A DNA stretch of 64,000 nt from Streptomyces sp. Tue 6430 (lineage in GTDB: Bacteria > Actinomycetota > Actinomycetes > Streptomycetales > Streptomycetaceae), in contig JAKGSH010000010.1 in the NCBI GenBank assembly GCA_021568835.1, positions 3,720,001-3,784,000 of the forward strand, in the 5' to 3' direction. How positions within the stretch are numbered: the stretch's first letter is position 1; each line of letters starts with the position of its first letter. The notes below the pieces were generated by a model. That model made no database searches. It saw only the letters and a program-made list of their open reading frames with translations, and was not told where the DNA came from. This document shows positions 15,047 through 59,529 of this stretch, piece by piece. The position numbers and the translations under genes were made by a program.

Positions 15047-15119
15047 GGCGAGCCGGTCACAGGCGCTGGCGTAGGCTGGCCGGGTCCGTCCACAACCCTT
15101 GACGAAAGGGACGCTCCCG

Positions 15120-16319
15120 GTGACCGAGAAGGCCGACCTCCAGTCCGTCCTCGACCGTGCCGCCGAGGGCGGGCGGATCACCCCCGAGGAGGCGCTCGCC
15201 CTCTACCGCGACGCGCCCCTGCACGCGCTGGGCGCCGCCGCCGATGCCGTGCGCCGCCGTCAGTACGCCGGCATCGAGCACATCGCGACGTACATCATCG
15301 AGCGGAACATCAACTACACGAACGTGTGCGTCACGGCGTGCAAGTTCTGCGCCTTCTACGCGGCGCCCAAGGACACGGCCAAGGGCTGGACGCGCGACCT
15401 GGACGACATCCTGCGCCGGTGCGCGGAGACCGTCGAACTCGGCGGCACCCAGATCATGTTCCAGGGCGGGCACCACCCGGACTACGGCGTGGAGTACTAC
15501 GAGAAGCACTTCTCCGCCATCAAGAAGGACTTCCCGCAGCTCGTCATCCACAGCCTGGGGGCGAGCGAGGTCGAGCACATGGCGCGGATCTCGAAGGTGT
15601 CCGTCGAGGAGGCGATCCGGCGCATCCACGCCGCCGGGCTCGACTCCTTCGCCGGCGCCGGCGCCGAGCTGCTCCCCGCCCGCCCGCGCAAGGCGATCGC
15701 CCCGCTGAAGGAGTCCGGCGAGCGCTGGCTGGAGATCATGGAGATCGCGCACGGCCTCGGCGTGGAGTCCACGTCGACCATGCTGATGGGCACCGGCGAG
15801 ACCAACGCCGAGCGCATCGAGCACCTGCGGATGATCCGTGACGTCCAGGACCGGACGGGCGGCTTCCGGGCCTTCATCCCGTACACCTACCAGCCCGAGA
15901 ACAACCACCTGAAGGGCCGCACCCAGGCGACCCTCTTCGAGTACCTGCGGATGATCGCGATCGCCCGCCTCTTCCTCGACAACGTCCGCCACATCCAGGG
16001 CTCCTGGCTGACCACGGGCAAGGAGGTCGGCCAGCTGTCGCTGCACTACGGCGCGGACGACCTCGGCTCCATCATGCTGGAGGAGAACGTCGTCTCCTCC
16101 GCCGGCGCCAGGCACCGCTCCAACCGCCTGGAGATCATCGACCTGATCCGCAAGGCGGGCCGCGTCCCGGCGCAGCGCGCGACGACGTACGAGCACCTCG
16201 TGGTGCACGACGACCCGGCGAACGACCCCGTCGACGAGCGGGTCGTCTCCCACATCTCGTCCACCGCGATCGAGGGCGGCACCGCGCACCCCGAGCTGAA
16301 GCTGCTGGCCTCCAACTGA
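15120..16319 (+). CDS. mqnC: Cyclic dehypoxanthine futalosine synthase MqnC
   Basis: A radical SAM enzyme that cyclises dehypoxanthine futalosine in the futalosine menaquinone pathway. The 399-residue protein has the Fe-S motif CVTACKFCAFYA (CxxxCxxC, about residues 75-83), then GGTQIMFQGGHHPD, and the C-terminal QLSLHYGADDLGSIMLEENV also seen in MqnE. A GTG was chosen with AAAGG ten bases upstream and the expected family length; an upstream in-frame codon seven codons earlier is less likely. The next gene starts eight bases after the stop, so the two form a unit. Confidence 0.96.
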   Translation: MTEKADLQSVLDRAAEGGRITPEEALALYRDAPLHALGAAADAVRRRQYAGIEHIATYIIERNINYTNVCVTACKFCAFYAAPKDTAKGWTRDLDDILRRCAETVELGGTQIMFQGGHHPDYGVEYYEKHFSAIKKDFPQLVIHSLGASEVEHMARISKVSVEEAIRRIHAAGLDSFAGAGAELLPARPRKAIAPLKESGERWLEIMEIAHGLGVESTSTMLMGTGETNAERIEHLRMIRDVQDRTGGFRAFIPYTYQPENNHLKGRTQATLFEYLRMIAIARLFLDNVRHIQGSWLTTGKEVGQLSLHYGADDLGSIMLEENVVSSAGARHRSNRLEIIDLIRKAGRVPAQRATTYEHLVVHDDPANDPVDERVVSHISSTAIEGGTAHPELKLLASN

Positions 16320-16850: not shown

Positions 16851-17909
16851 TCACCCGGAGAAGGCCTCCGCGAACGCCCCCGAACTCTGCTCCACCCCGC
16901 TGCAGTCGGTCAGCGCGTCGTCCGCGTCGGTGCCCTCCTCGCACTGCCGGTCCCGGAACGTCGACCACATCGACACCCAGGAGACGCCCTTCTCCTCGGC
17001 GAACGCCCGCACCCGCGCCGCGTCCGCGAGCGTGAACGTCTCGCCCGCGACGTCGTTGACGCCGATCATCGAGGTGAGCGCCATGCCCTTCCAGGCGGCG
17101 GCGTCCGTCGTGCCGAAGACCTCCTCGAGCTGGGCGTGCGCGGCGGTGGCCGAGGTGACGGCGTACCCGCCCATGTCCCCGGCGTACGACTCCCCGTAGT
17201 TCATCGTCATCAGGTTGACGGCGGACACCTGGACGTCGTACTTGTTCGCCGAGGTCAGCAGCGCGAGGCCGTCGGAGTCCAGGCCCGACGGCATCACCGG
17301 GAGGGTGAACGAGACCTCCAGGTCCGGGCGTTCCTCCTGGAGCGCGGCTATCGCCCGGGAGCGCAGGGCGACCGAGTCGGCGTCGGTCAGCTCCTCGCCC
17401 TCGATGTCGAAGTCGGCCCGGGTGGAACCGGCCGCGTCGAGCGCCGCGCCGTAGGCCTCGGCCAGCTCCGCCACGCTGTCGCAGGTGGCCGCCAGTTCCT
17501 TGCCGGACGCGCCGCCGAAGGAGACCCGCACCGGGGCGCCCGTCGCGGTGAGCGCGGAGACGCGCGCGGCCACGGTCGCGTCGTCGACCGCGCGGGTGCC
17601 GTTCCACTCCGGGGTGCAGCCGCTGCCGTCGGAGATGACGAAGGCCAGGTTGTACGCCGAGGGGGAGCCCGCGGCGTCGTTGGCGGAGGCCTCCGCGGCG
17701 TTGACGTAGGGGGCGTACGACGTGCCGGACGTGGCGCCGGAACCGGTACCGGAACCGGCGCTGGGGCCGGCGCCGCCGTCGGTCCCGGCGCTCTGCCGCG
17801 GTGTCGCGGGTGCCGCGTCCGACGTGCCGCCGGACCCCGCGGAGCATCCCGCCGTGGCCAAGGCGAACAGGCAGGTGAGCCCGGCCGCCGGCCTCAGGAA
17901 ACTCCTCAT
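16851..17909 (-). CDS. GH18-like (chitinase-family) lipoprotein
   Basis: A 352-residue secreted protein. The N-terminus is a lipoprotein signal (MRSFLRPAAGLTCLFALATAGC, cut before the lipobox Cys in ATAGC), followed by a Ser/Gly/Ala linker to about residue 65. The rest is a GH18-type domain: the catalytic DxDxE motif appears as ADFDIEGEE, with VNLMTMNYGES and WVSMWSTFRD matching chitinase barrel strands. It probably cleaves or binds N-acetylglucosamine polymers at the cell surface. It is divergent from the deacetylase/glycosyltransferase genes, so a role in trimming that polymer is plausible. Confidence 0.85.
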   Translation of the reverse strand: MRSFLRPAAGLTCLFALATAGCSAGSGGTSDAAPATPRQSAGTDGGAGPSAGSGTGSGATSGTSYAPYVNAAEASANDAAGSPSAYNLAFVISDGSGCTPEWNGTRAVDDATVAARVSALTATGAPVRVSFGGASGKELAATCDSVAELAEAYGAALDAAGSTRADFDIEGEELTDADSVALRSRAIAALQEERPDLEVSFTLPVMPSGLDSDGLALLTSANKYDVQVSAVNLMTMNYGESYAGDMGGYAVTSATAAHAQLEEVFGTTDAAAWKGMALTSMIGVNDVAGETFTLADAARVRAFAEEKGVSWVSMWSTFRDRQCEEGTDADDALTDCSGVEQSSGAFAEAFSG

Positions 17910-18216
17910 TGCGCATGCACCCGCTCTCGTGATTTCTGTCTCAGGACGGAGACAAAGGCCGTTCCCGAACTCGAAATGTCTCACATGCGGGCCGCTCGCA
18001 CCGAGACAGCGAACACGCAGCCATTTCATGGACAAATATGGTCGAAGATGGAAAATTTGGCGCCCAAAAGGGGCGATCGGCCCGGTCCTTCCGCAGGTCG
18101 GCCGCGCGGGCATTCGCCCTTTCTCTCAGGCAAGGGACAGGTTCGGCCGTTCCTCACGGCCCACTCACAAGAAGACCAGAGTTCAGGGCACATAAAGGCT
18201 CCCTAATATCCGGGGA
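17910..18216. promoter_or_regulatory. Divergent promoter region of the PNAG-type locus
   Basis: This 307-bp region is AT-richer than its surroundings. A TAATAT hexamer at 18204-18209 ends seven bases before the ATG at 18217, implying a leaderless transcript for the small membrane protein. ATTTGGCGCCCAAAAGG (about 18056-18072) contains the perfect palindrome TTGGCGCCCAA-like core (GGCGCC). No other operator is assigned. Confidence 0.45.
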
Positions 18217-18630
18217 ATGCATTCCGAGCCTGCCGTCGAAAGCCGTGCCGCCGCTCGCGGTCGCCGTCGCAAACGTGACGACGACTCCGCCGCCGAGGGC
18301 CCCGTGTTCGTTGACAACTCCGGACGCCGGTCCAGACTGCTGCGCCGGATCGGCCTCCTCATGGGCGCCGGCTGCCTCGTCTACGCGGCCGTCCTCGGCG
18401 CCGCCTTCATGGGCTGGGGCACCTCGCTCGCCCCGTCCTCGCTGCTGCCGTTCGGCGGCACCGCCCAGGAGGGCCGGGGTCCCGGCGGGATGCGCCCGGA
18501 CGGCGGCCTCGGCAACCAGATCGGCCTGCCGGGCGGCACCCCGCCCACCGGCGCCGCCTCCCCGTCCCCGTCCGTCCCCGCCTCTCCGTCCGCCTCCCCG
18601 TCCGTCCCCGCCTCCGCGGCCGCCCACTGA
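18217..18630 (+). CDS. Small membrane protein (MatA-like)
   Basis: A 137-residue protein with a charged N-terminus (ESRAAARGRRRKRDDDS), one clear transmembrane helix (about residues 48-68: LLRRIGLLMGAGCLVYAAVL) and a Pro/Ser/Gly-rich external tail ending in PSPSVPASPSASPSVPASAA. It lies 19 bp before a deacetylase/glycosyltransferase fusion. In Streptomyces a small membrane protein, MatA, is encoded with the PNAG synthase MatB; this position and topology suggest the same accessory role, comparable to IcaD. The assignment is by context and topology, not catalytic motifs. Confidence 0.6.
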   Translation: MHSEPAVESRAAARGRRRKRDDDSAAEGPVFVDNSGRRSRLLRRIGLLMGAGCLVYAAVLGAAFMGWGTSLAPSSLLPFGGTAQEGRGPGGMRPDGGLGNQIGLPGGTPPTGAASPSPSVPASPSASPSVPASAAAH

Positions 18631-18649
18631 CCGGAACGCAGCCACCCCC

Positions 18650-20983
18650 ATGACGACGACTCCCTCCCGCGGCCGGCGCCGCGCCCCCTCCCGTATCGAA
18701 CGGGCGGCGGGCAAGGCCGCGGCCCTCCAGAAACCCCGCGTCATCCTGGCGGGGCTGCTGCTGCTCGCCCTCACCAGCGTGATGCTGCTCGACGGCTACC
18801 TGCGCGCCGAGGTCGGCGGCGACCAGCGGGTCCGCACCGGGGCCGGCGCGAGCAAGGTGCCCGACGACATCCTCGAGGGCGGCCCGATCCTCACCTTCCG
18901 CGGCGGCCAGGCCACCACCGTCTCGGTCCCGGACAAGACGATCGTGCTCACCTTCGACGACGGCCCCGACCCCACCTGGACCCCCCAGGTCCTGGAGATC
19001 CTCGAGAAGTACGACGTGCCCGGGACCTTCTTCCTGGTCGGGGCGATGGTCTCGCGCTACCCGGGCATCGTGAAGGACATGGTCGAGCAGGGCGACGAGG
19101 TGGGCATCCACACCTTCACCCACGTCGACCTCTCCTACCAGAGCGACGCCCGTGTCGACCGCGAGATGGAGCAGACCCAGCTCGCGCTCGCGGGCGCGGC
19201 GGGCATCACCACCACGCTGTTCCGCGCGCCCTACTCCTCCAAGACGGACGCCATCGACAACTACAGCTGGCCCGTCTACCAGCGGCTCGGCGAGGACGGC
19301 TACACCAGCGTCTTCGTCGACACCGACAGCGACGACTGGAAGAGGCCGGGCGTCTCCAAGATCATCGAGTGGGCCACGCCGGAGGACGGCGAGGGGGCGT
19401 CGGTCCTCTTCCACGACGCGGGCGGCGAGCGCTCCCAGACGATCGCCGCGCTGCCGGCGTACATCAAGAAGATGAAGGCGGCCGGCTACACCTTCACCAC
19501 CATCAGCGGCGCGATGCAGGAGGAGAGCGCGGCGGCCCGCGAGGCTTCCGGGCAGCAACAGCAGGCGGGTGCGGGTGCGGGTGCCGGGGACGAGGCTGCG
19601 GCTGGTGCGGCTGGTGCGGCTGGTGCGGCTGGTGCGGCTGGTGCGGCCGGCGGGGCCGGTGTGGCCGGGGGCGGGCTCCAGGCCGCCCACCGTGAGGCCA
19701 CCGGTGTGCCCCTGTACGAGGGCAAGGCGCTCGTCGCGGCGGTCGCCGTCGCCGAGTGGACGGTGCCGACGCTCTCCGTCGGACTGGCCGTCGTGGGCGT
19801 GGCCGTCATGGGCCGCTTCGGGATGATGCTGATCCTCGCCCGCCGCCACCACCGCAAGCGCAACAAGCGCCGCTTCAGCTGGGGACCGACCGTCACCCGG
19901 CCGGTCAGCGTGATCGTCCCGGCGTACAACGAGAAGGAGTGCATCGCCAACACCCTGGAATCACTGGCGCGGAGCACCCATCCGATCGAGATCATCATCG
20001 TGGACGACGGATCGACGGACGGCACGTCCGAGATCTCCCGCGAGGCGGCGAAGGCCCTGGGCATGACCAACGTCCGCGTCATCCGCCAGGAGAACGCGGG
20101 CAAGCCGGCCGCCCTCAACAACGGTGTCCGCAACGCCGGTTGCGACATCGTCGTGATGATGGACGGCGACACCGTCTTCGAGCCCGACACCGTGCGCCAC
20201 CTGGTCCAGCCGTTCGCCGACCCGAAGGTCGGCGCGGTCGCCGGCAACGCCAAGGTCGGCAACCGCGACACGGTCATCGGCGCCTGGCAGCACATCGAGT
20301 ACGTCATGGGCTTCAACCTCGACCGCCGCATGTACGACCTGCTGCGCTGCATGCCGACCATCCCCGGCGCGATCGGCGCCTTCCGCCGGGACGCCGTCCT
20401 GGAGGTCGGCGGCATGAGCGAGGACACCCTCGCCGAGGACACCGACATCACCATCGCCATGCACCGCGCCGGCTGGAACGTCGTCTACCAGGAGCACGCC
20501 CGCGCCTGGACCGAGGCCCCCGGCTCCCTCAAACAGCTGTGGTCCCAGCGCTACCGCTGGTCCTACGGCACCATGCAGGCCCTGTGGAAGCACCGCAAGT
20601 CCCTCACGGACAAGGGGCCCGCGGGGCGCTTCGGACGTGTCGGCATGCCGCTGGTCGTCCTCTTCCAGGTCGTCACGCCGGTCTTCGCGCCGCTGATCGA
20701 CGTGTTCACCGCCTACTCGATGATCTTCATCGACTTCCGGGCGGCCCTGCTGGCCTGGCTCGCGGTCCTGGGCGTGCAGCTCGTCTGCGCCGCGTACGCC
20801 TTCCGTCTCGACCGTGAGAAGTACCGCTACCTGCTGATGATGCCGCTCCAGCAGCTCGCCTACCGCCAGATGATGTACCTCGTCCTCATCCACTCCTGCG
20901 TCACCGCCCTCACCGGCGGCCGCCTGCGCTGGCAGAAGCTCAAGAGGACCGGCGAGGTCGGGACCCCGGCCGGGGTGAGCTGA
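18650..20983 (+). CDS. Polysaccharide deacetylase/GT2 synthase fusion (MatB-like)
   Basis: A 777-residue membrane protein combining two activities. After one N-terminal helix (about 30-48) comes an extracellular NodB deacetylase domain (TFDDGPD at 101-107, metal histidines in HTFTH at 154-158). Next are a Gly/Ala linker with AAGAAG repeats (about 303-342), a helix (about 370-397) and a cytoplasmic GT2 domain (VIVPAYNEKE, DGD at 505-507, EDTD at 596-599, QRYRW at 633-637, the processive-synthase signature). More helices follow. This is the architecture of Streptomyces MatB, which makes poly-beta-1,6-N-acetylglucosamine. Cellulose- or chitin-like products cannot be excluded. Confidence 0.88.
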   Translation: MTTTPSRGRRRAPSRIERAAGKAAALQKPRVILAGLLLLALTSVMLLDGYLRAEVGGDQRVRTGAGASKVPDDILEGGPILTFRGGQATTVSVPDKTIVLTFDDGPDPTWTPQVLEILEKYDVPGTFFLVGAMVSRYPGIVKDMVEQGDEVGIHTFTHVDLSYQSDARVDREMEQTQLALAGAAGITTTLFRAPYSSKTDAIDNYSWPVYQRLGEDGYTSVFVDTDSDDWKRPGVSKIIEWATPEDGEGASVLFHDAGGERSQTIAALPAYIKKMKAAGYTFTTISGAMQEESAAAREASGQQQQAGAGAGAGDEAAAGAAGAAGAAGAAGAAGGAGVAGGGLQAAHREATGVPLYEGKALVAAVAVAEWTVPTLSVGLAVVGVAVMGRFGMMLILARRHHRKRNKRRFSWGPTVTRPVSVIVPAYNEKECIANTLESLARSTHPIEIIIVDDGSTDGTSEISREAAKALGMTNVRVIRQENAGKPAALNNGVRNAGCDIVVMMDGDTVFEPDTVRHLVQPFADPKVGAVAGNAKVGNRDTVIGAWQHIEYVMGFNLDRRMYDLLRCMPTIPGAIGAFRRDAVLEVGGMSEDTLAEDTDITIAMHRAGWNVVYQEHARAWTEAPGSLKQLWSQRYRWSYGTMQALWKHRKSLTDKGPAGRFGRVGMPLVVLFQVVTPVFAPLIDVFTAYSMIFIDFRAALLAWLAVLGVQLVCAAYAFRLDREKYRYLLMMPLQQLAYRQMMYLVLIHSCVTALTGGRLRWQKLKRTGEVGTPAGVS
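19567..19672 (+). repeat. Gly/Ala-coding repeat in the synthase linker
   Basis: Iterated GGTGCGGCT and GCGGGTGCGGGT units encode Gly/Ala-rich linker residues between the deacetylase and glycosyltransferase parts. It is a flexible spacer that is probably variable in length. Confidence 0.8.
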
Positions 20984-22251
20984 GTGGGCGCGCACAGCAA
21001 GGGCGCGGCCCGCGGGCCGGCCCGCGGCACGGCCCGGCGGACCGCCGTCACGGACGACCTGCCCGGCTCCGGCCCCGGTTCTGGCCCCGCCCTCGGCCCC
21101 ACCCCCGGCTCCCCTCTCGGCCCTACCCCCGGCCCCGGTCCCGGTCCCGTCACGGACACGGCTCCCCTGCCCGCGGTGGGGAGCGTCCGGCGGGGCCGCC
21201 GGCCGCGGGGCCGCGGGCGCCCGGCCGTGACCGCTACTTCGACAGCCTCCGGGCCCTCGCCCTCGTCCGGGTCGTGGCGTACCACACCTTCGGCTGGGCC
21301 TGGGCGGGCCTGGTCTTCCCCTCCATGGGCGTCATGTTCGGCCTGGCCGGCACCCTGATGGCGAAGTCCCTGGAACGCCCGGCGCTCACCGTGGTGCGCG
21401 GCCGCCTCCGCAGACTCCTGCCGCCTTTCTGGTTCTGGGGCGCCTTCGTGGTCGCGGCGATGCTCGTCCACGGCTGGATGCCGGGTCGGCAGATCGTCTA
21501 CTGGATCGTGCCGCTGGGCGATCCGCCGGGCAACGCCTGGGGCGAGCAGGCCTGGGAGATCCTCTGGTACCTGCGCACCTACCTGTGGTTCGTGCTGCTC
21601 TCCCCGCTCCTGCTCCGGCTGTTCCGCCTCGCCCCGGTCCCCGTCCTGGCCGCGTCCCTCGCCCCGGTCCTGGTGCTGAACTTCGCCTGGGCCGGCCCGG
21701 ACGGCCGCGTCGGCACCGCCCTGTGGGACCTGTCGACGTACCTCTTCTGCTGGCTGCTCGGCTTCGCCCACCGCGACGGCGTGCTCCAGCGTGCGAAACC
21801 GGCCCCGGTGGTCGCGCTCTCCCTGGCGGCCATGGCGTACGGCGGCTGGTACGCCTTCACGCACCGGGCCGAGTACGGCACCTACGACCTGGACGAGAAC
21901 CCCCTCGCGCAGGCCTTCTGGTCGGCCGGCTTCGTGATGCTGCTGATGTGGGCTAAGGCGTACTTCCGGATCGACTTCGCCGGGCTCACCCGGCGCAGGC
22001 GCCTGAACCGGCTGGTCTCCGTCTTCAACGCGCGCGCGGTGACGATCTACCTCTGGCACGAGATCGCCCTGGTGCTGGCGGTCCCGCTGATCGACCGGTT
22101 CTGGGACGTGCCCGCCTTCGAGGCGTACCTGCCGCTGGAGAGCCAGTGGTTCCTGTTCGCCGTCGGCTGGCTGCTGATCGTGGTGTTCGTGCTGCTGTGC
22201 GGCTGGGTCGAGGACGTGGCCGCCCGGAAGAAGCCGAGGCTGCTGCCGTGA
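20984..22251 (+). CDS. Acyltransferase family 3 membrane protein (frame broken once)
   Basis: A multi-pass acyltransferase-3 protein. It opens with a long Gly/Pro-rich cytoplasmic segment from a GTG directly abutting the preceding TGA. The family start RDRYFDSLRALALVRVVAYH then appears in the frame one base back, at about 21233, and continues through roughly ten helices to the end. One base is missing somewhere at about 21190-21235, within several GC runs. Length modulo three agrees. Members transfer acetyl or succinyl groups to surface glycans; IcaC in staphylococcal PNAG operons is a family relative. Placement after the MatB-like synthase suggests polymer modification. Confidence 0.8.
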
Positions 22252-22281: not shown

Positions 22282-22977
22282 GTGACCCGTGCTTCCCTGA
22301 ACAAGCAGCCCCACGAAGTCGCCTCGATGTTCGACCGCGTGGCGGAACGGTACGACCTCACCAACGACGTCCTCTCGCTCGGCCAGGACCGCAGATGGCG
22401 CAAGGAGGTCGCGCGCGCCGTCGACGCCCGCCCCGCGCAGAAGGTCCTCGACCTGGCGGCGGGCACGGCCACCTCCTCGCTGCCCTTCGCCAGGACCGGC
22501 GCCTACGTCGTCCCCTGCGACTTCTCCCTCGGCATGCTCCAGGTGGGCAAGCAGAAGCACCCCTGGCTGCCGCTCACCGCGGGCGACGCGACGAGGCTGC
22601 CGTTCAAGGACGACACCTTCGACGCCGTCACCATCTCCTTCGGGCTGCGCAACGTGCAGGACTTCGACGCGGCCCTGCGGGAGATGCACCGGGTGACGCG
22701 GCCCGGCGGACGGGTCGTGATCTGCGAGTTCTCGCACCCGACCTGGGCGCCCTTCCGCCAGGTCTACACCGAGTACCTGATGCGCGCCCTGCCCCCGGTC
22801 GCCCGCGCGGTGTCCTCGAACCCCGACGCGTACGTCTACCTCGCCGAGTCCATCCGCGCCTGGCCCGACCAGCCCGCCCTCGCCGGGCACCTGCGCAGGG
22901 CCGGCTGGTCGAAGGTCGCCTGGCGCAACCTCACCGGCGGGGTGGTCACCCTGCACCGGGGCTTCAAGGAGGACTGA
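22282..22977 (+). CDS. menG: Demethylmenaquinone methyltransferase MenG/UbiE
   Basis: A 231-residue SAM-dependent methyltransferase that makes the last methyl transfer to give menaquinone. Family marks are [20 protein letters not shown] near the N-terminus, SAM motif [13 protein letters not shown] (about 50-61), CDFSLGML, and [17 protein letters not shown], the UbiE signature. GTG start; CACAAT (22269-22274) seven bases upstream could be a -10 for a leaderless mRNA. With mqnA, mqnC and mqnE in the window, it completes much of the menaquinone route. Confidence 0.94.
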
Positions 22978-54735: not shown

Positions 54736-55941
54736 GGCTGCTCCACCCCGGCGGCGACGGCCGCCCGTCCCACGGCGGCCGCCGCGCTCAGCGGCACCGG
54801 CGCCCGCGCGACCCGGCCCCGCTCCCCGCCCCTTCACGCTCCGCTCCGTGGGCCCCGGCCCCGGCCCCGGCCCGGGCCCCGACCCGCTTCCTCACCGTCG
54901 CCGCCGTCGCCTGCGCCGTCCTGACCGTCGTCCTCCTCCTGCGCGGCGGCACCGGCCTGGACGACTCCGTTTCCGAGCCGGGGCCGGGCGGGTCGCGGCC
55001 CCCGGCCCTGGGTGGCAGGTGCGCGCCGACCGCGCTGCTCGAACCGCCCTGCGGGGCCTGGTTCGGCGCGTTCGTGCCGCACGGCAAGGACGACCTCGCG
55101 GAGAAGGCCCGCGGCTACGAGCGGCGCATCGGCCGCAAGCTCGACATCGTGTACACGTACCACGACATGTCCCTGGTCCAGGGGACCGCCTGGAAGGACA
55201 GTTGCTCACTCCGGAGGAGCGGCGCGTCGCCGGCGAGGAACACCTGCTGCTGCTGTCCTGGGAGAGCAAGTGGTGGGGCGGCACGAAGGCGCAGCAGCCC
55301 ACCTGGAAGCAGATCGCGGACGGTGACCTGGACGCCTCGGTCATCGACGTCCAGGCCGCGCGGATCAGGGAGTTCGGGGAGAAGGTCTTCCTCTCCTTCG
55401 ACCTCGAGATGGACACCCGCACGCCCGCCAGCGGCACCCCGAGGACTACGTGCGCGCCTACCGTCACCTCCACGACCGGTTCCGGGAGCTGGGCGTGACC
55501 AACGTGGTGTGGACGTGGATCACCACCGGCTACCTCGAGCACGCCGACCTGATCGAGCGGATGTACCCGGGCGACGACTACGTCGACTGGGTGGCCTACA
55601 ACCAGTACAACTACTACCGGTGCCACGACACGGGCTGGCTCTCCTTCGCCGAGACCCAGCGGGCCACGCACGAGTGGATCCGCGAGAACATCTCGGACGA
55701 CAAACCGCTGATGCTCTCCGAGTTCGGTACGGCCGACGACCCGTCCCGGCCGAACCGGCAGGCGCAGTGGTACGCGCAGGTGCCGGCGGTCCTGAAGGGC
55801 CTGACGGGCGTCAAGGCCGCGCTGCAGTGGAACTACCGCGACCCCGGCCCGCACTGCGACCTCGCGCTGGCCCGCGACGAGACCTGGGCCGGCCTGCGCA
55901 AGGCGGTCTCCGACCCCTATCTCAACCAGCCGTTCGGATAG
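54732..55941 (+). CDS. Exported GH26-like glycoside hydrolase (frame broken twice)
   Basis: About 403 residues after correction: a Pro/Arg-rich cytoplasmic start, one signal-anchor helix (RFLTVAAVACAVLTVVLLLR) and an extracellular barrel like GH26 endo-mannanases or related hydrolases. Candidate catalytic glutamates lie in FLSFDLEMDT and LMLSEFGTADDP; WVAYNQYNYYRC is another barrel strand. Frame breaks fit a lost G at 55196-55197 (WK|GQLLTPEERR) and a lost C at 55437-55440 (GTP|EDYVRAYRHL). Length is short of a multiple of three by two, as predicted. It probably trims the glycan made by this locus. Confidence 0.8.
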
Positions 55942-56033
55942 CCCGGACGACGCACGGACCGGGTGGGGCCGCGAGTGGGGAGGCACGGGCGTGGGCACGG
56001 GTGGGGAAGGCACGGGTGGGGCCGCGGGTGCGG

Positions 56034-56838
56034 CTAGCCCGCGAACACGGGCCCGCGCAGCACCGCGCGGGCCCGCCGGTACCAGCGCCACCCCACCGTC
56101 CTCGGACCGTCCCGGTACGGCGCGACGCGTGCTCCCCGCCCGCCAGCCAGCTCTCCACGTCGGCGACGGTGTGGGAGCGCCGCACGATGAGCCGGGCGAT
56201 GCGGTACGCCTCGTCCCGTTCCGAACTCAGCGCGTGCCGCACGGCGGTGGCCGTCTCGTACCCGGCGGCGGCCGCCATGCGCCGCACCCGCCCGCTGTTG
56301 TAGCCGTGCGGATAGGCGAGATGGCGCACGGGATGCCCGAGTGCGTCCTCCAGCACGGCCCGCGAATCGCGCAGTTCGCGGGCGAGGTCACGGGACGGCA
56401 GGGTGTCGAGCTGGGCGTGCGTGACGGTGTGGCTGCCGACCTCCGTGCCGGACTGTTCCAGCCCGGCGGCCTGGGCCAGCGTCATCATCGGGGCGGGCGG
56501 CAGCAGACTGCGCCCGCCGGGGCTGATCGCGCCGGTGGTGAGGTAGGCGGTGGCAGCCAGGTTCCGCGCGGCCAGTGCCTCGGCGGTCGGTCCGGGCAGG
56601 TCGGCGAACCCGTCGTCGAAGGTCAGCAGCACGGGCCGGTCGGGCAGCGGAGCCCGCCCCGCGAGGTGGTCGGCGAACGCGCTCACCGTCACGGGCGTAC
56701 GGCCGCTGGCGACGACGGCGTCGAGATGCGCCGCGAACTCCTTCGGGGTGACGGTGAACTCCGCGATCCAGGAGGGCGGTTCGTCCATCACGGCGTGGTA
56801 GAGGAAGACCGGCACGGCCTCGCCGCCCGCCCCGTCAT
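56034..56838 (-). CDS. NodB-type polysaccharide deacetylase (frame broken twice)
   Basis: About 268 residues after correction. The core contains VPVFLYHAVMDEPPSWIAEF, the NodB metal motif LTFDDGFAD, and HTVTHAQLD with the second metal histidines. It removes acyl groups from polysaccharides. The ATG at 56838 overlaps the stop of the glycosyltransferase upstream (ATGA) but is out of frame with the domain; one G restored in the run at 56830-56833 gives MTGAGGEAVPVF. At the other end, a base restored at 56134-56137 gives VAPYRDGPRTVGWRWYRRAR and a stop at 56034. Length modulo three agrees with two losses. No signal peptide is visible. Confidence 0.82.
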
Positions 56839-58340
56839 CGCGACCTCCCGGCCGCCTTGGCCGCTCCGGCCGCTCCGGCCGCCCCGGCCGTCCCGGACAG
56901 CACGGACGCCTGCGCGGCGCGCAGCGCACGCCGGGCGCGCAGATAGCCGACCGGCCCGTACACCATCCCCTTCCGTTGCAGCCGGGACAGCCGCCGCGGC
57001 CACGGATGACCACGGTCGTCGTGTCCGCCCGGAACACTCGGAACACCCGGCACACCCGGAGTGCTCGGCAGGCCCGAAGCGCCCGGCGCGCCCGCCGTGC
57101 TCCGGGCGTCCGTGTCCCGGGCCGCCGTCAGCGTGCGGGCGTGCGCGAGTCCGCGGGGGAGCCGGGCGAGGAACGCCGGCAGCAGCGCGGGCCGGTTGAC
57201 CAGGAGGGCGGTGAGGCAGGCGGTGAGGCCGACGCCGTAGCCGTACGCCTGCGTCTCCAGGTCCTGCCAGGTCTCGCGGTGGTGGTGCCAGACCAGGGCC
57301 TGCGGGGTGTAGCGCAGGCGGTGTCCCTGGGCGAGCACGCGGACGAAGCCGTAGAGGTCGTCGCCGCCGCGCGCGAGCGTGCCCGCCCCCGTCGCGGGGT
57401 CGAAGCCGCCGACCGCACGCAGCACGCCGGTCCGGAACGCCATGTTGGCGCCCGACCCGAACCGGCCCGCCGTGAACGGGAACAGCGGCTCGTCGGCGGG
57501 CGGGTCCGCGGGGTCGTACGTCCGTGGTGCGAAGCCCTTCGCGAAGCCGCCGTGGCTCTCCAGCAGCACCTGGGCGGGGGTGCGCAGCCGGGCCGGCAGG
57601 ATCAGCCCGGTGGCGCAGCCGAGGCCGGGGTCGGCCGCGAAGGGTGCGGTGAGTTCGGTCAGCCAGCGCGGGTCGGCGACCACGTCGTCGTCGGTGAAGG
57701 CGACCACGTCGCCGCGCGCGGCCGCGAGGCCGGTGTTGTGGGCGACGGCGAGGCCGGGCACGGGCTCGGTCACGTACCGCACGCGCTCGGCGTACTCGCG
57801 TCCGACCAGGTCACGGGTCGCGTCCGTCACCGGGGCGTTGTCGACGACGACGATCTCGAAGTCGGGGTGGTCCTGGACGAGCATCGAGTCGAGCGCGTGG
57901 GCGAGCCGGTCGGCGCGCTCACGGGTGGCGATGACGACGGTGGTGAACGGGACGGTGCGCCCGGTGGCGGCCGGAGCCGGAGCCGGAGCCGGTGCTTGTG
58001 CCGGTGCCGGTGCCGGTGCGGGTGCGGGTGCCGATGCCGGTCCGCTGTCCGCGTGCCGCCGGGCGAGTTCGGTGAGGACCGCTCTCGGGTCGGCACCCTC
58101 GGGCACCCGTCCGAGCAGTGCGGCGACCGGCCGGCCGGCCCTGCGGACCAGGAGGAACACCTCGCCGTGCGTCACGGGCGGGCTCCCCGGACCGGGCCTC
58201 AGCACACCGCCGCCGTCCGGCCCCGGCCCCGGCCCCTGCCCCGGCCCCCGGCCTGGTTCCAGTTCCAGTTCGGCGACCTGCACCGGCTCGATGGCGAGGT
58301 ACCTCCGGATCTCCCGCCGTACACGTGTCACGTGGGACAC
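56835..58340 (-). CDS. Family 2 glycosyltransferase
   Basis: About 501 residues. The N-terminal 100 residues are a small domain of unknown type (EIRRYLAIEPVQVAELELEP; VFLLVRRAGRPVAALLG), followed by an Ala-Pro repeat linker (103-125). The GT2 catalytic domain (about 132-360) has VVIATRERADRLAHALDSML, the nucleotide-sugar and metal motif AFTDDDVVAD, and GGDDLYGFVRV with a catalytic acidic pair. A basic Pro/Gly-rich tail follows. GTG at 58340 was chosen with GGGGAGG just upstream. Its stop is coupled to the deacetylase. The sugar and acceptor are unknown. Confidence 0.87.
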   Translation of the reverse strand: MSHVTRVRREIRRYLAIEPVQVAELELEPGRGPGQGPGPGPDGGGVLRPGPGSPPVTHGEVFLLVRRAGRPVAALLGRVPEGADPRAVLTELARRHADSGPASAPAPAPAPAPAQAPAPAPAPAATGRTVPFTTVVIATRERADRLAHALDSMLVQDHPDFEIVVVDNAPVTDATRDLVGREYAERVRYVTEPVPGLAVAHNTGLAAARGDVVAFTDDDVVADPRWLTELTAPFAADPGLGCATGLILPARLRTPAQVLLESHGGFAKGFAPRTYDPADPPADEPLFPFTAGRFGSGANMAFRTGVLRAVGGFDPATGAGTLARGGDDLYGFVRVLAQGHRLRYTPQALVWHHHRETWQDLETQAYGYGVGLTACLTALLVNRPALLPAFLARLPRGLAHARTLTAARDTDARSTAGAPGASGLPSTPGVPGVPSVPGGHDDRGHPWPRRLSRLQRKGMVYGPVGYLRARRALRAAQASVLSGTAGAAGAAGAAKAAGRSR

Positions 58341-58442
58341 GAATCCTCCCCCTCCACTTTCATGGACCGTCGGAACCCGCCGGGACTTGTCGGCACCCGT
58401 CGGAGCACGTCGCGCACGCCTCACGAACGCCTCAGAAACGCC

Positions 58443-59529
58443 TCAGGGCCGGCGCAGCCGTCCGACACCCTTCAGCGCCCGTGCGGCCGTCGCCGCGAGC
58501 CGCGGCCGGTTGCGCACGAAGTGGTGCGCCCGGCGCGAGGGCTCCCGGCTGAGCCAGTGGAGCGCGGCGCCCGCCCCGGACGCGTCCACGCCCCCTCGTA
58601 GACGGGCAGTTCGCCCGTCTTCAGCGAGTCCTTGTACTCGGCGGCCCCCGGCCGAGGTCGAGCAGGCCGATGCCCTCGGCGGCGGCGGCCTCGGCCATCC
58701 GCAGGTGCAGCACCAGACCGGGCGAGTACTTCGCGAACTCCGGGTCGTAGGCGGGGAACCAGCAGGCCAGCACGGTCGTCGAGCGCAGCCCGAAGTGCGC
58801 GGCGACCGGCTGCCCGCCCGCGTAGAGGACGGACAGGGTGCCGGAGCAGTCCGTGCCACGCGTCTCCCGGGCGAGCAGGTGCACGAGCCGGGTGATCCAC
58901 TCCTGCGCGAACCGGTCCCGGCGGCCGGTCCTGCGGTACTGCGCGGACTTCCACGCCATCAGCGTGCGCAGCGCGGCCGGGTCCCGCTCGTCGAACACGA
59001 ACCGCAGGTCACCGACCTGGCGGCCGAGCCTGCGCTCCTTGGCGAGCGTCGTCTTGAGGAACTTCGGGGACTGCGCGCGCAGGACGGACTCGTAGGTTTC
59101 GTACCCCTTCTCCACGTCGATGACGTAGGAGGTGTACTCGGCCGCCGCGTGCGGGACGAACAGCTCCTGCTCCGCCTCCAGGTTGTCGAAGGCGAAGCTC
59201 GACAGGGAGCAGGCCCGCAGGAGTTCGTCCGCGCTCAGCCAGGGAACCGGGCCGAGGACGGCTCCCTGGGAGTCCGAGACGCCGTGGGCGAGGGCCTGGC
59301 CCCGGCCGAACCGGCCCCGCTCGTGGGGCAGGAAGCCGACCGGCTCGCGCCCCTCGTACACCACCGCCACGCGCGTGCGGGGCCGCACGCGGCCCACGGC
59401 CTCGGTGAACTCCGGTTCCATGAAAGGGTTGCGCGCAGCCGTCGACGCGGCGCGCAGCGCGCGCCACCGCTCCCGTTCCCCCTCGCCGAGATCCTCCGGA
59501 CTCAGCACACGAATGCGTCCGCCGCTCAA
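58443..59529 (-). CDS. CelD/FemX-type GNAT protein (frame broken twice)
   Basis: About 362 residues after correction. It resembles the GNAT_CelD (BioF2-like) proteins encoded in exopolysaccharide loci: FMEPEFTEAVGRVRPRTRVA, then AHFGLRSTTVLACWFPAYDP and KYSPGLVLHLRMAEAAAAEG. The frame breaks at LDLGRG|AAEYKDSLKTGELP (C5 run 58645-58649) and PVYEG|GVDASGAGAALHW (C5 run 58591-58595). Length is short of a multiple of three by two, as expected. TTG at 59529 with GGGGGT upstream is the likely start; GTG at 59508 is an alternative. The substrate is unknown. Confidence 0.8.

Follow-up and report, generated by a model that had tools for sequence, protein, structure and literature searches.

A paralogous Mat-type locus accompanied by a GH18 lipoprotein gene in Streptomyces

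The stretch of DNA analysed here (the window, 64,000 nucleotides, C2:3720001-3784000) comes from the 8.2 Mb genome of Streptomyces sp. Tue 6430, whose assembly is 85.5% complete with low contamination. Positions 16851-22251 hold a minus-strand lipoprotein gene and three plus-strand genes divergent from it, flanked upstream by mqnC and downstream by the demethylmenaquinone methyltransferase gene menG. A preliminary reading made from the letters of the window (the sequence-only reading) had seen here a poly-N-acetylglucosamine (PNAG) locus comparable to ica and pga. The four parts that it listed are present, the start of the acyltransferase-3 (AT3) gene being corrected to 20984, and the set is not a product of chance: it recurs across Streptomyces. 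A literature search that mostly covered journals outside subscription found no paper on the locus. Its S. coelicolor counterparts are presumably SCO4551-SCO4555. The features are the following, 9buf and 2dsk being solved chitinase structures discussed below.

16851..17909, minus strand: GH18-fold lipoprotein, 352 amino acids; lipobox LATAGC in the signal peptide, chitinase-like domain beginning near residue 65
17400..17414, minus strand: DFDIE catalytic motif, residues 166-170, aligned to 9buf and 2dsk; codon of the catalytic Glu170 at 17400-17402
17199..17201, minus strand: Asn237, in MTMNY; Asp at the same position in homologues
17910..18216, no strand: divergent intergenic region; the 60-95 nt nearest the small gene are conserved
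18217..18630, plus strand: MatA-like small membrane protein, 137 amino acids; GPVFVDxSGRRxRLLRRxG, one hydrophobic stretch (by eye) and a Pro/Ser-rich tail
18650..20983, plus strand: MatB-type fusion synthase, 777 amino acids; NodB/CE4 then GT2, with a putative membrane topology
18923..19258, plus strand: NodB/CE4 deacetylase domain (Pfam extent), residues 92-203; Polysacc_deac_1, E 3e-34
19901..20569, plus strand: GT2 polysaccharide synthase domain (Pfam extent), residues 418-640; PF13641, E 1.4e-39
20984..22251, plus strand: AT3 gene; GTG start at 20984, at the synthase stop; apparent frameshift within 20984-21274
15099..16319, plus strand: mqnC, flanking and outside the system; TIGR03699, 460 bits (cut-off 428)
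22282..22977, plus strand: demethylmenaquinone methyltransferase gene, flanking and outside the system; 417 bits (cut-off 327)

The fusion synthase and its kinship with mat

The fusion synthase is laid out as an N-terminal helix, a NodB/CE4 domain, a long helix, a GT2 domain and long C-terminal helices. When each half was compared with 12 sequences, the GT2 half was closest to PgaC (35% identity, E 2e-45), followed by IcaA (1e-37), NodC (2e-23) and BcsA (6e-20), while the NodB half was nearest to rhizobial NodB (1e-35), with PgaB (2e-5) and IcaB (0.001) far behind, and the mat-type fusion of the same genome displays the same split in its nearest relatives. The best NCBIfam model for the GT2 half is PgaC_IcaA (TIGR03937, 193.2 bits; NodC, 84). 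Its QRYRW, DxD and TLAED motifs are conserved, as are the catalytic residues of the NodB domain. Among solved structures, the folds nearest to the modelled synthase are those of a mannosyltransferase and of hyaluronan synthases, which do not settle the identity of the polymer.

This domain order is that reported for MatB, whose gene is coupled to matA and precedes the acyltransferase gene SCO2961 (PMC4391728), and the MatAB-like pair noticed in the sequence-only reading is borne out by an N-terminal NodB domain, a C-terminal PgaC-like GT2 domain and a MatA-homologous small protein encoded upstream. The window locus thus has a MatA-like protein, a NodB-GT2 fusion and an AT3 protein in the same order as the matA-matB-SCO2961 locus (SCO2963-SCO2961). 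There is one other closely related fusion in the genome (L007, C2:2212425-2214578; 65% identical in the GT2 and 56% in the NodB half), with a MatA-like protein upstream, an AT3 protein (45%) downstream, an adjoining LysR-type regulator gene and a nearby gene for an extracytoplasmic function sigma factor; it is without a GH18 gene and otherwise of the same content as the window locus. L007 is likely the mat locus, because it has the domain and gene order published for matA-matB-SCO2961 and because mat-type synthases occur in 57 of 101 Streptomyces genomes, an assignment that was made from gene order and not from the S. coelicolor sequence. In the literature, mat genes have been reported in about two thirds of Streptomyces genomes.

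In these 101 genomes, synthases were classed by GT2 identity as window type (at least 75%), mat type (62-74%) or a third, lower type, the partial matches of one genome with a broken synthase frame (G095) being kept in the count. The window type is found in 29 genomes and the mat type, with 62 synthases, in the 57 mentioned; 22 of the 29 carry both. In a GT2 tree of 68 rows, produced, like the GH18 tree discussed below, by a quick method whose program flagged long branches, the 21 window-type synthases form one clade (97 in the Shimodaira-Hasegawa-like approximate likelihood ratio test, SH-aLRT) and the mat-type synthases another (97), the two being joined at 96; row L120_T, the mat-class copy of genome G039, falls in the mat clade. 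By descent, as judged from these alignments, the window locus is a paralogue of the matA-matB-SCO2961 locus, and its synthase is not orthologous to SCO2962, since the two types form separate sister clades that co-occur in 22 genomes (the SCO2962 sequence itself standing outside the comparison). Besides belonging to a separate clade, the window type differs from mat in its genomic site, in an AT3 protein about 42-45% identical and in a divergent GH18 gene, which lies beside 29 of 29 window-type and 0 of 62 mat-type synthases. Locus L120 (G039:C6:158000-176000) carries two different NodB-GT2 fusions about 4 kb apart, one of which adjoins an AT3 gene.

The core PVFVDxxGRRxRxxRRxG and a single hydrophobic stretch occur in the small proteins of both window-type and mat-type loci. 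With a profile built from the window-type proteins, a homologue was detected in all 14 mat-type loci given (E 2e-7 in L007 and 1e-5 in L084), in 6 of the 11 loci numbered L120 to L130 and in 11 of 16 loci of other actinomycetes at E below 0.001, with two more at 0.01; there was no match in the two loci holding IcaD and PgaD. Because the matches span mat-type loci, L120-L130 and other actinomycetes, the MatA-like protein and the NodB-GT2 fusion look like an old actinobacterial core, the mat-type small proteins presumably being MatA itself. The IcaD role first assigned to the small protein is rejected in view of its MatA-like profile matches and of the lack of any in the IcaD and PgaD loci. Ahead of the small gene, a block conserved in 57 loci (18107-18216) contains repeated TCTCA/CACA-like words and, in the window, TAATAT at 18204-18209, 7 nt before the ATG, a position that suggests a leaderless promoter. 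No Rfam family was found in 17800-18700.

The last gene of the cassette needs a correction. Acyl_transf_3 (PF01757) matches the open reading frame (ORF) 21274-22251 (E 6.5e-27), and in the 16 relatives compared the AT3 gene begins where the synthase gene ends and reads on without interruption, several of the proteins starting with MGAHSKG or a similar sequence. The GTG at 20984 is the equivalent start in the window, but its frame differs from that of the AT3 body. Because the frame is uninterrupted in the 16 relatives, ORFs 20984-21358 and 21274-22251 look like one AT3 gene with a frameshift in a GC-rich linker, and the 124-amino-acid ORF 20984-21358 is rejected as a separate gene. This frameshift would be either an indel error of the assembly or a real break in the strain, and the completeness of 85.5% at low contamination fits indel errors.

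The GH18 lipoprotein and its linkage to the synthase

No Pfam model (including PF00704) or NCBIfam model matched the lipoprotein at E up to 0.001. It is nevertheless a GH18 protein, by sequence and by model: searched against the PDB, its sequence finds S. venezuelae chitinase 1 (9buf, E 3.8e-78) and a Pyrococcus furiosus chitinase (2dsk, E 2.6e-24), and its structural model (pLDDT 94) superimposes on the two with TM scores of 0.92 and 0.85. Chitinases occupy ranks 1-34 of the fold matches in the PDB, and in a viral fold library the top matches are chlorovirus and other GH18 proteins. The GH18 fold and the DxDxE, GVND and WS motifs are common to the cassette protein and both solved chitinases. 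Cassette and orphan GH18 proteins were aligned, 69 in all, of which L090-L092 are orphans; both Asp residues and the Glu of DxDxE, the Asp of GVND, the Tyr of MxMxY and the Trp of SMWS are invariant throughout. A lipobox-like start was recognized by pattern in 62 of these 69 orthologues. Cassette GH18 proteins are mostly lipoproteins of about 350 amino acids, whereas the open frames of many other homologues in Streptomyces are longer, at about 500.

One position sets the cassette proteins apart. Within the MxM(D/N)Y strand, all 69 cassette and orphan proteins have Asn, whereas 9buf, 2dsk and 20 of 21 other homologues from the genus have Asp, the sole exception being a Ser in the orphan of genome G010. 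When sets of 70 and 19 GH18 proteins were compared, this was the only listed position fixed differently in both groups (Asn in 70 of 70, Asp in 19 of 19), the set of 19 leaving out L109 (the G010 orphan with Ser) and L119, both of which are in the set of 21. In the GH18 tree, cassette and orphan proteins form one clade (98), with the G010 protein inside it on a long branch. Judged by its place in the strand, the Asp of this motif should correspond to Asp215 in ChiB of S. marcescens and would line the active site. Such a difference in charge close to the catalytic acid suggests an altered specificity or pH response.

The link between hydrolase and synthase is consistent. In the 101 genomes, each of the 29 window-type synthases has a GH18 homologue on the opposite strand, no more than 2.4 kb from the GT2 match, while none of the 62 mat-type synthases has one within 8 kb (Fisher p 2e-24, kinship ignored). 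Among the 21 third-type synthases, only some of which were fetched, one (in G026) has a GH18 gene within 8 kb, with mqnC and other genes in between. A further collection, made up of the 80 best loci from a capped list and possibly overlapping the first set in species, was divided by another rule (mat type only if the AT3 match was below 50% identity, window type otherwise) into 68 window-type and 12 mat-type loci. There, each of the 59 window-type loci whose sequence extends 2.7 kb upstream has the GH18 gene, which is still visible in 2 of the other 9, these being cut by contig ends; it is present in 0 of the 12 mat-type loci, 10 of which have 2.7 kb upstream. The AT3 gene is the looser part of the cassette, since it is downstream in 58 of 65 window-type loci with flank and missing in 7, three of which (L073, L075 and L085) are window type by the default rule only and of unsure class. 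The sequence-only reading had held that its case would fall if the neighbours were not conserved beside the synthase in relatives, and they are.

The menaquinone genes, on the other hand, are an incidental setting. Full flanks are available for 55 window-type loci of the best 80; mqnC and menG are both present in 44 of these and both absent from 10, and these 10 keep the GH18 gene without exception and the AT3 gene in 8 cases; L097-L099, which also lie outside this setting, have the GH18 gene, the small gene and the synthase gene with no AT3 match. What the GH18 gene goes with is thus the synthase and not the site, and dependence on the menaquinone genes is rejected.

Exceptions run in one direction. 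GH18 homologues of at least 55% identity occur in 32 genomes, 6 of which have no window-type synthase nearby. Three of these (G013, G049 and G009) must have lost the synthase, because remnants of the small, NodB or AT3 genes stay between the GH18 gene and menG; two (G026 and G027) show no remnants and the sequence of G099 stops at a contig edge. A seventh genome, G010, has a more distant GH18 gene (49%) at the same mqnC-menG site and no synthase there. There are therefore 6 resolved cases of GH18 without synthase, 3 with remnants, and no resolved case of a window-type synthase without GH18. Such one-sided loss agrees with a hydrolase which producers of the polymer require and which does no harm when the polymer is absent. 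In 16 loci of other actinomycetes, from 15 of 16 genomes (G167 being left out) and some with less than 2.5 kb upstream, no GH18 profile match was found, and the partnership therefore probably arose in or near Streptomyces.

A similar coupling was found in another phylum. A plasmid search returned two plasmid-borne alphaproteobacterial proteins of 1099 and 1088 amino acids (Sphingobium BDX69999.1 and Sulfitobacter WP_007121072.1) in which NodB and GT2 domains follow an extra N-terminal region. In the Sphingobium protein, whose GT2 domain is 43% identical, this region scores 30.7 bits with Glyco_hydro_18, above the cut-off of 29.6; in the Sulfitobacter protein it has no Pfam match and resembles the GH18 cortex-lytic enzyme SleL (E 8.5e-7). 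A GH18-like domain, as judged by these matches, is joined there to a NodB-GT2 synthase, which provides independent support for the coupling, although these are single polypeptides with a different GH18 subfamily and different neighbours. At the 3' side of the two fusions (L139:5152-7689 and L138:5876-8476) lie genes for two candidate partners, one a DUF3131 and the other an LPG_synthase_C protein.

Polymer, mechanism and competing explanations

Three points are new: the occurrence of a paralogous Mat-type locus in 29 of the 101 Streptomyces genomes, the consistency with which a GH18 lipoprotein accompanies it, and a fixed change in the active site of that lipoprotein. From gene content, folds, conserved catalytic residues, kinship with mat and the linkage of GH18 to the synthase we infer, with a confidence only slightly better than even, a second Mat-type exopolysaccharide locus with a dedicated hydrolase, which makes and trims PNAG. 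The GT2 half would polymerize uridine diphosphate N-acetylglucosamine into a chain most likely linked β-1,6 rather than β-1,4, by analogy with the MatAB polymer, and the chain would be extruded through the membrane helices of the fusion with the MatA-like protein as partner. Outside the membrane, the NodB half would take off some of the N-acetyl groups, the AT3 protein, where present, would add an O-acyl group, and the membrane-anchored GH18 lipoprotein would cut the emerging or surface-bound chain, either setting its length or releasing it.

Streptomyces pellets, a problem in fermentation, have so far been attributed to two glycans, made by MatAB and CslA (PMC5972031, PMC4391728). The cslA-glxA system, with which the window locus is compared by description and not by sequence, likewise centres on a surface-glycan synthase needed for pellets (PMC5972031, PMC7300013), its glycan being β-1,4 by calcofluor staining (PMC5972031). 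If the reading as a second PNAG locus is true, deletion of matAB need not remove all such polymer, and the locus would offer a built-in dispersing enzyme. A hydrolase that cuts PNAG would represent a new lineage of antibiofilm enzymes, while a β-1,4 polymer would reveal a bacterial chitin or chitosan pathway, and either answer bears on why MatB-type proteins pair a PNAG-type synthase with a chitin-type deacetylase.

Several points weigh against a second PNAG locus. The GT2 half stays below the TIGR03937 cut-off (193.2 against 422.3 bits), and the GH18 and NodB families are known mainly from β-1,4 N-acetylglucosamine substrates. The six genomes with an orphan GH18 gene indicate that it is kept even where the synthase is missing, an argument against a strictly dedicated function, and it may have another job. 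In S. lividans, matA, matB and matAB mutants were reported to show a PNAG signal at background (PMC5972031); if that strain carries a window-type locus, its product did not register as PNAG there. Finally, the regulator next to L007 is of the LysR type whereas the one named beside matA belongs to the IclR family (PMC4391728), a reservation on L007 as the mat locus.

The strongest competitor is a β-1,4 polymer, i.e. a chitin-type counterpart of mat in which the NodB half makes chitosan and the GH18 protein is an ordinary chitinase. It is in accord with a NodB half nearest to a chitooligosaccharide deacetylase (1e-35) and far from IcaB and PgaB, with a GH18 protein closest to the S. venezuelae and P. 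furiosus chitinases, and with the presence of this protein beside the window-type synthase and not beside mat. The GT2 half is, however, closer to PgaC and IcaA than to NodC, and the Asp-to-Asn change fixed in the cassette is absent from 20 other GH18 homologues. Moreover, the window-type GT2 is sister to the mat clade, in which MatB combines a PgaC-like synthase with a chitin/peptidoglycan-type deacetylase, and the MatB polymer has still been identified as PNAG, by staining with a PNAG antibody, the signal being negated by dispersin B, and by periodate (PMC5972031). Altogether, we regard a β-1,4 product as rather unlikely, if still a serious candidate.

It seems improbable that the lipoprotein stands outside the polysaccharide system, as a surface chitinase that serves the uptake of chitin or the turnover of the wall and is encoded next to the synthase by chance. 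That reading would account for the six genomes with GH18 at the mqnC-menG site and no synthase, for the intact catalytic residues of the three aligned orphans (L090-L092) and for the lack of a GH18 match in the 16 related loci outside Streptomyces, some of them short-flanked. It is difficult to reconcile with a linkage of 29 of 29 against 0 of 62, upheld in all 10 loci that have no menaquinone genes beside them, with one GH18 clade going with one synthase clade, with the absence of window-type synthases lacking GH18 where the flank allows a view, and with the GH18-like/NodB/GT2 fusions of another phylum. Very unlikely is a cellulose-like, hyaluronan-like or mixed polymer, a kind of outcome that the sequence-only reading had allowed for, since although the top solved folds are a mannosyltransferase and hyaluronan synthases and a GT2 fold leaves the sugar unfixed, PgaC and IcaA lead by sequence with BcsA behind (6e-20 against 2e-45), and the presence of a CE4 deacetylase and of a GH18 enzyme speaks for N-acetyl sugars.

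Under the preferred reading of a PNAG locus, one may go further and imagine that the lipoprotein goes back to a secreted Streptomyces chitinase which, in a single event, came to lie beside a duplicated Mat synthase, and whose active site was adapted by the Asp-to-Asn change to cutting the β-1,6, partly deacetylated polymer of that synthase, as a Gram-positive analogue of PgaB or dispersin B. We consider this scenario doubtful, and know of no GH18 enzyme acting on PNAG.

How far the locus resembles ica and pga depends on what is compared. The likeness proposed at the outset stands by function and not by descent. The window locus has in common with icaADBC and pgaABCD a PgaC/IcaA-like GT2 enzyme and a CE4 deacetylase and, with ica, an AT3 protein, and such a comparison had already been published for mat in 2015 and 2018 (PMC4391728, PMC5972031). 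Of the roles proposed, that of IcaA suits the GT2 half, whose nearest relatives are PgaC and IcaA, but that of IcaB does not extend to descent, the fused deacetylase being NodB-like; as to that of IcaC, the AT3 protein and IcaC both fall in PF01757 and show no pairwise similarity (E 0.13). Descent from ica or pga is rejected in view of the NodB-like deacetylase, the lack of an IcaD/PgaD-like protein and the absence of pairwise similarity between the AT3 protein and IcaC. The parallel drawn with the hydrolase domain of PgaB had to be given up, since the lipoprotein has a GH18 chitinase fold with DxDxE while the best match to the C-terminal domain of PgaB is E 8.5 over 11 residues. The PgaB domain, described as free of GH18 and GH20 motifs, founds family GH153 (PMC5933820), and a hydrolase of that type is rejected here on fold and on lack of similarity.

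Hydrolases at other loci and a further cluster in the window

Hydrolase genes were also noticed near other synthases. In the S. equorum plasmid pKS1030-3 (L133, L160 and L161; NZ_CP068579.1, 7901-12368), a gene for a family 20 glycosylhydrolase is convergent with icaADBC, which by analogy may be regarded as a parallel, i.e. a hydrolase beside a PNAG operon. A Deinococcus taeanensis plasmid (L137) encodes a related GT2 protein with a GH16 gene two genes upstream and a gene for a GH26-like glycosyl hydrolase directly downstream. In the window itself, genes for an unfused polysaccharide deacetylase (55922-57055), a GT2 protein (56835-58424) and an Acetyltransf_6 protein (58621-59529), all on the minus strand, adjoin at 55922-59529 and are possibly another exopolysaccharide locus.

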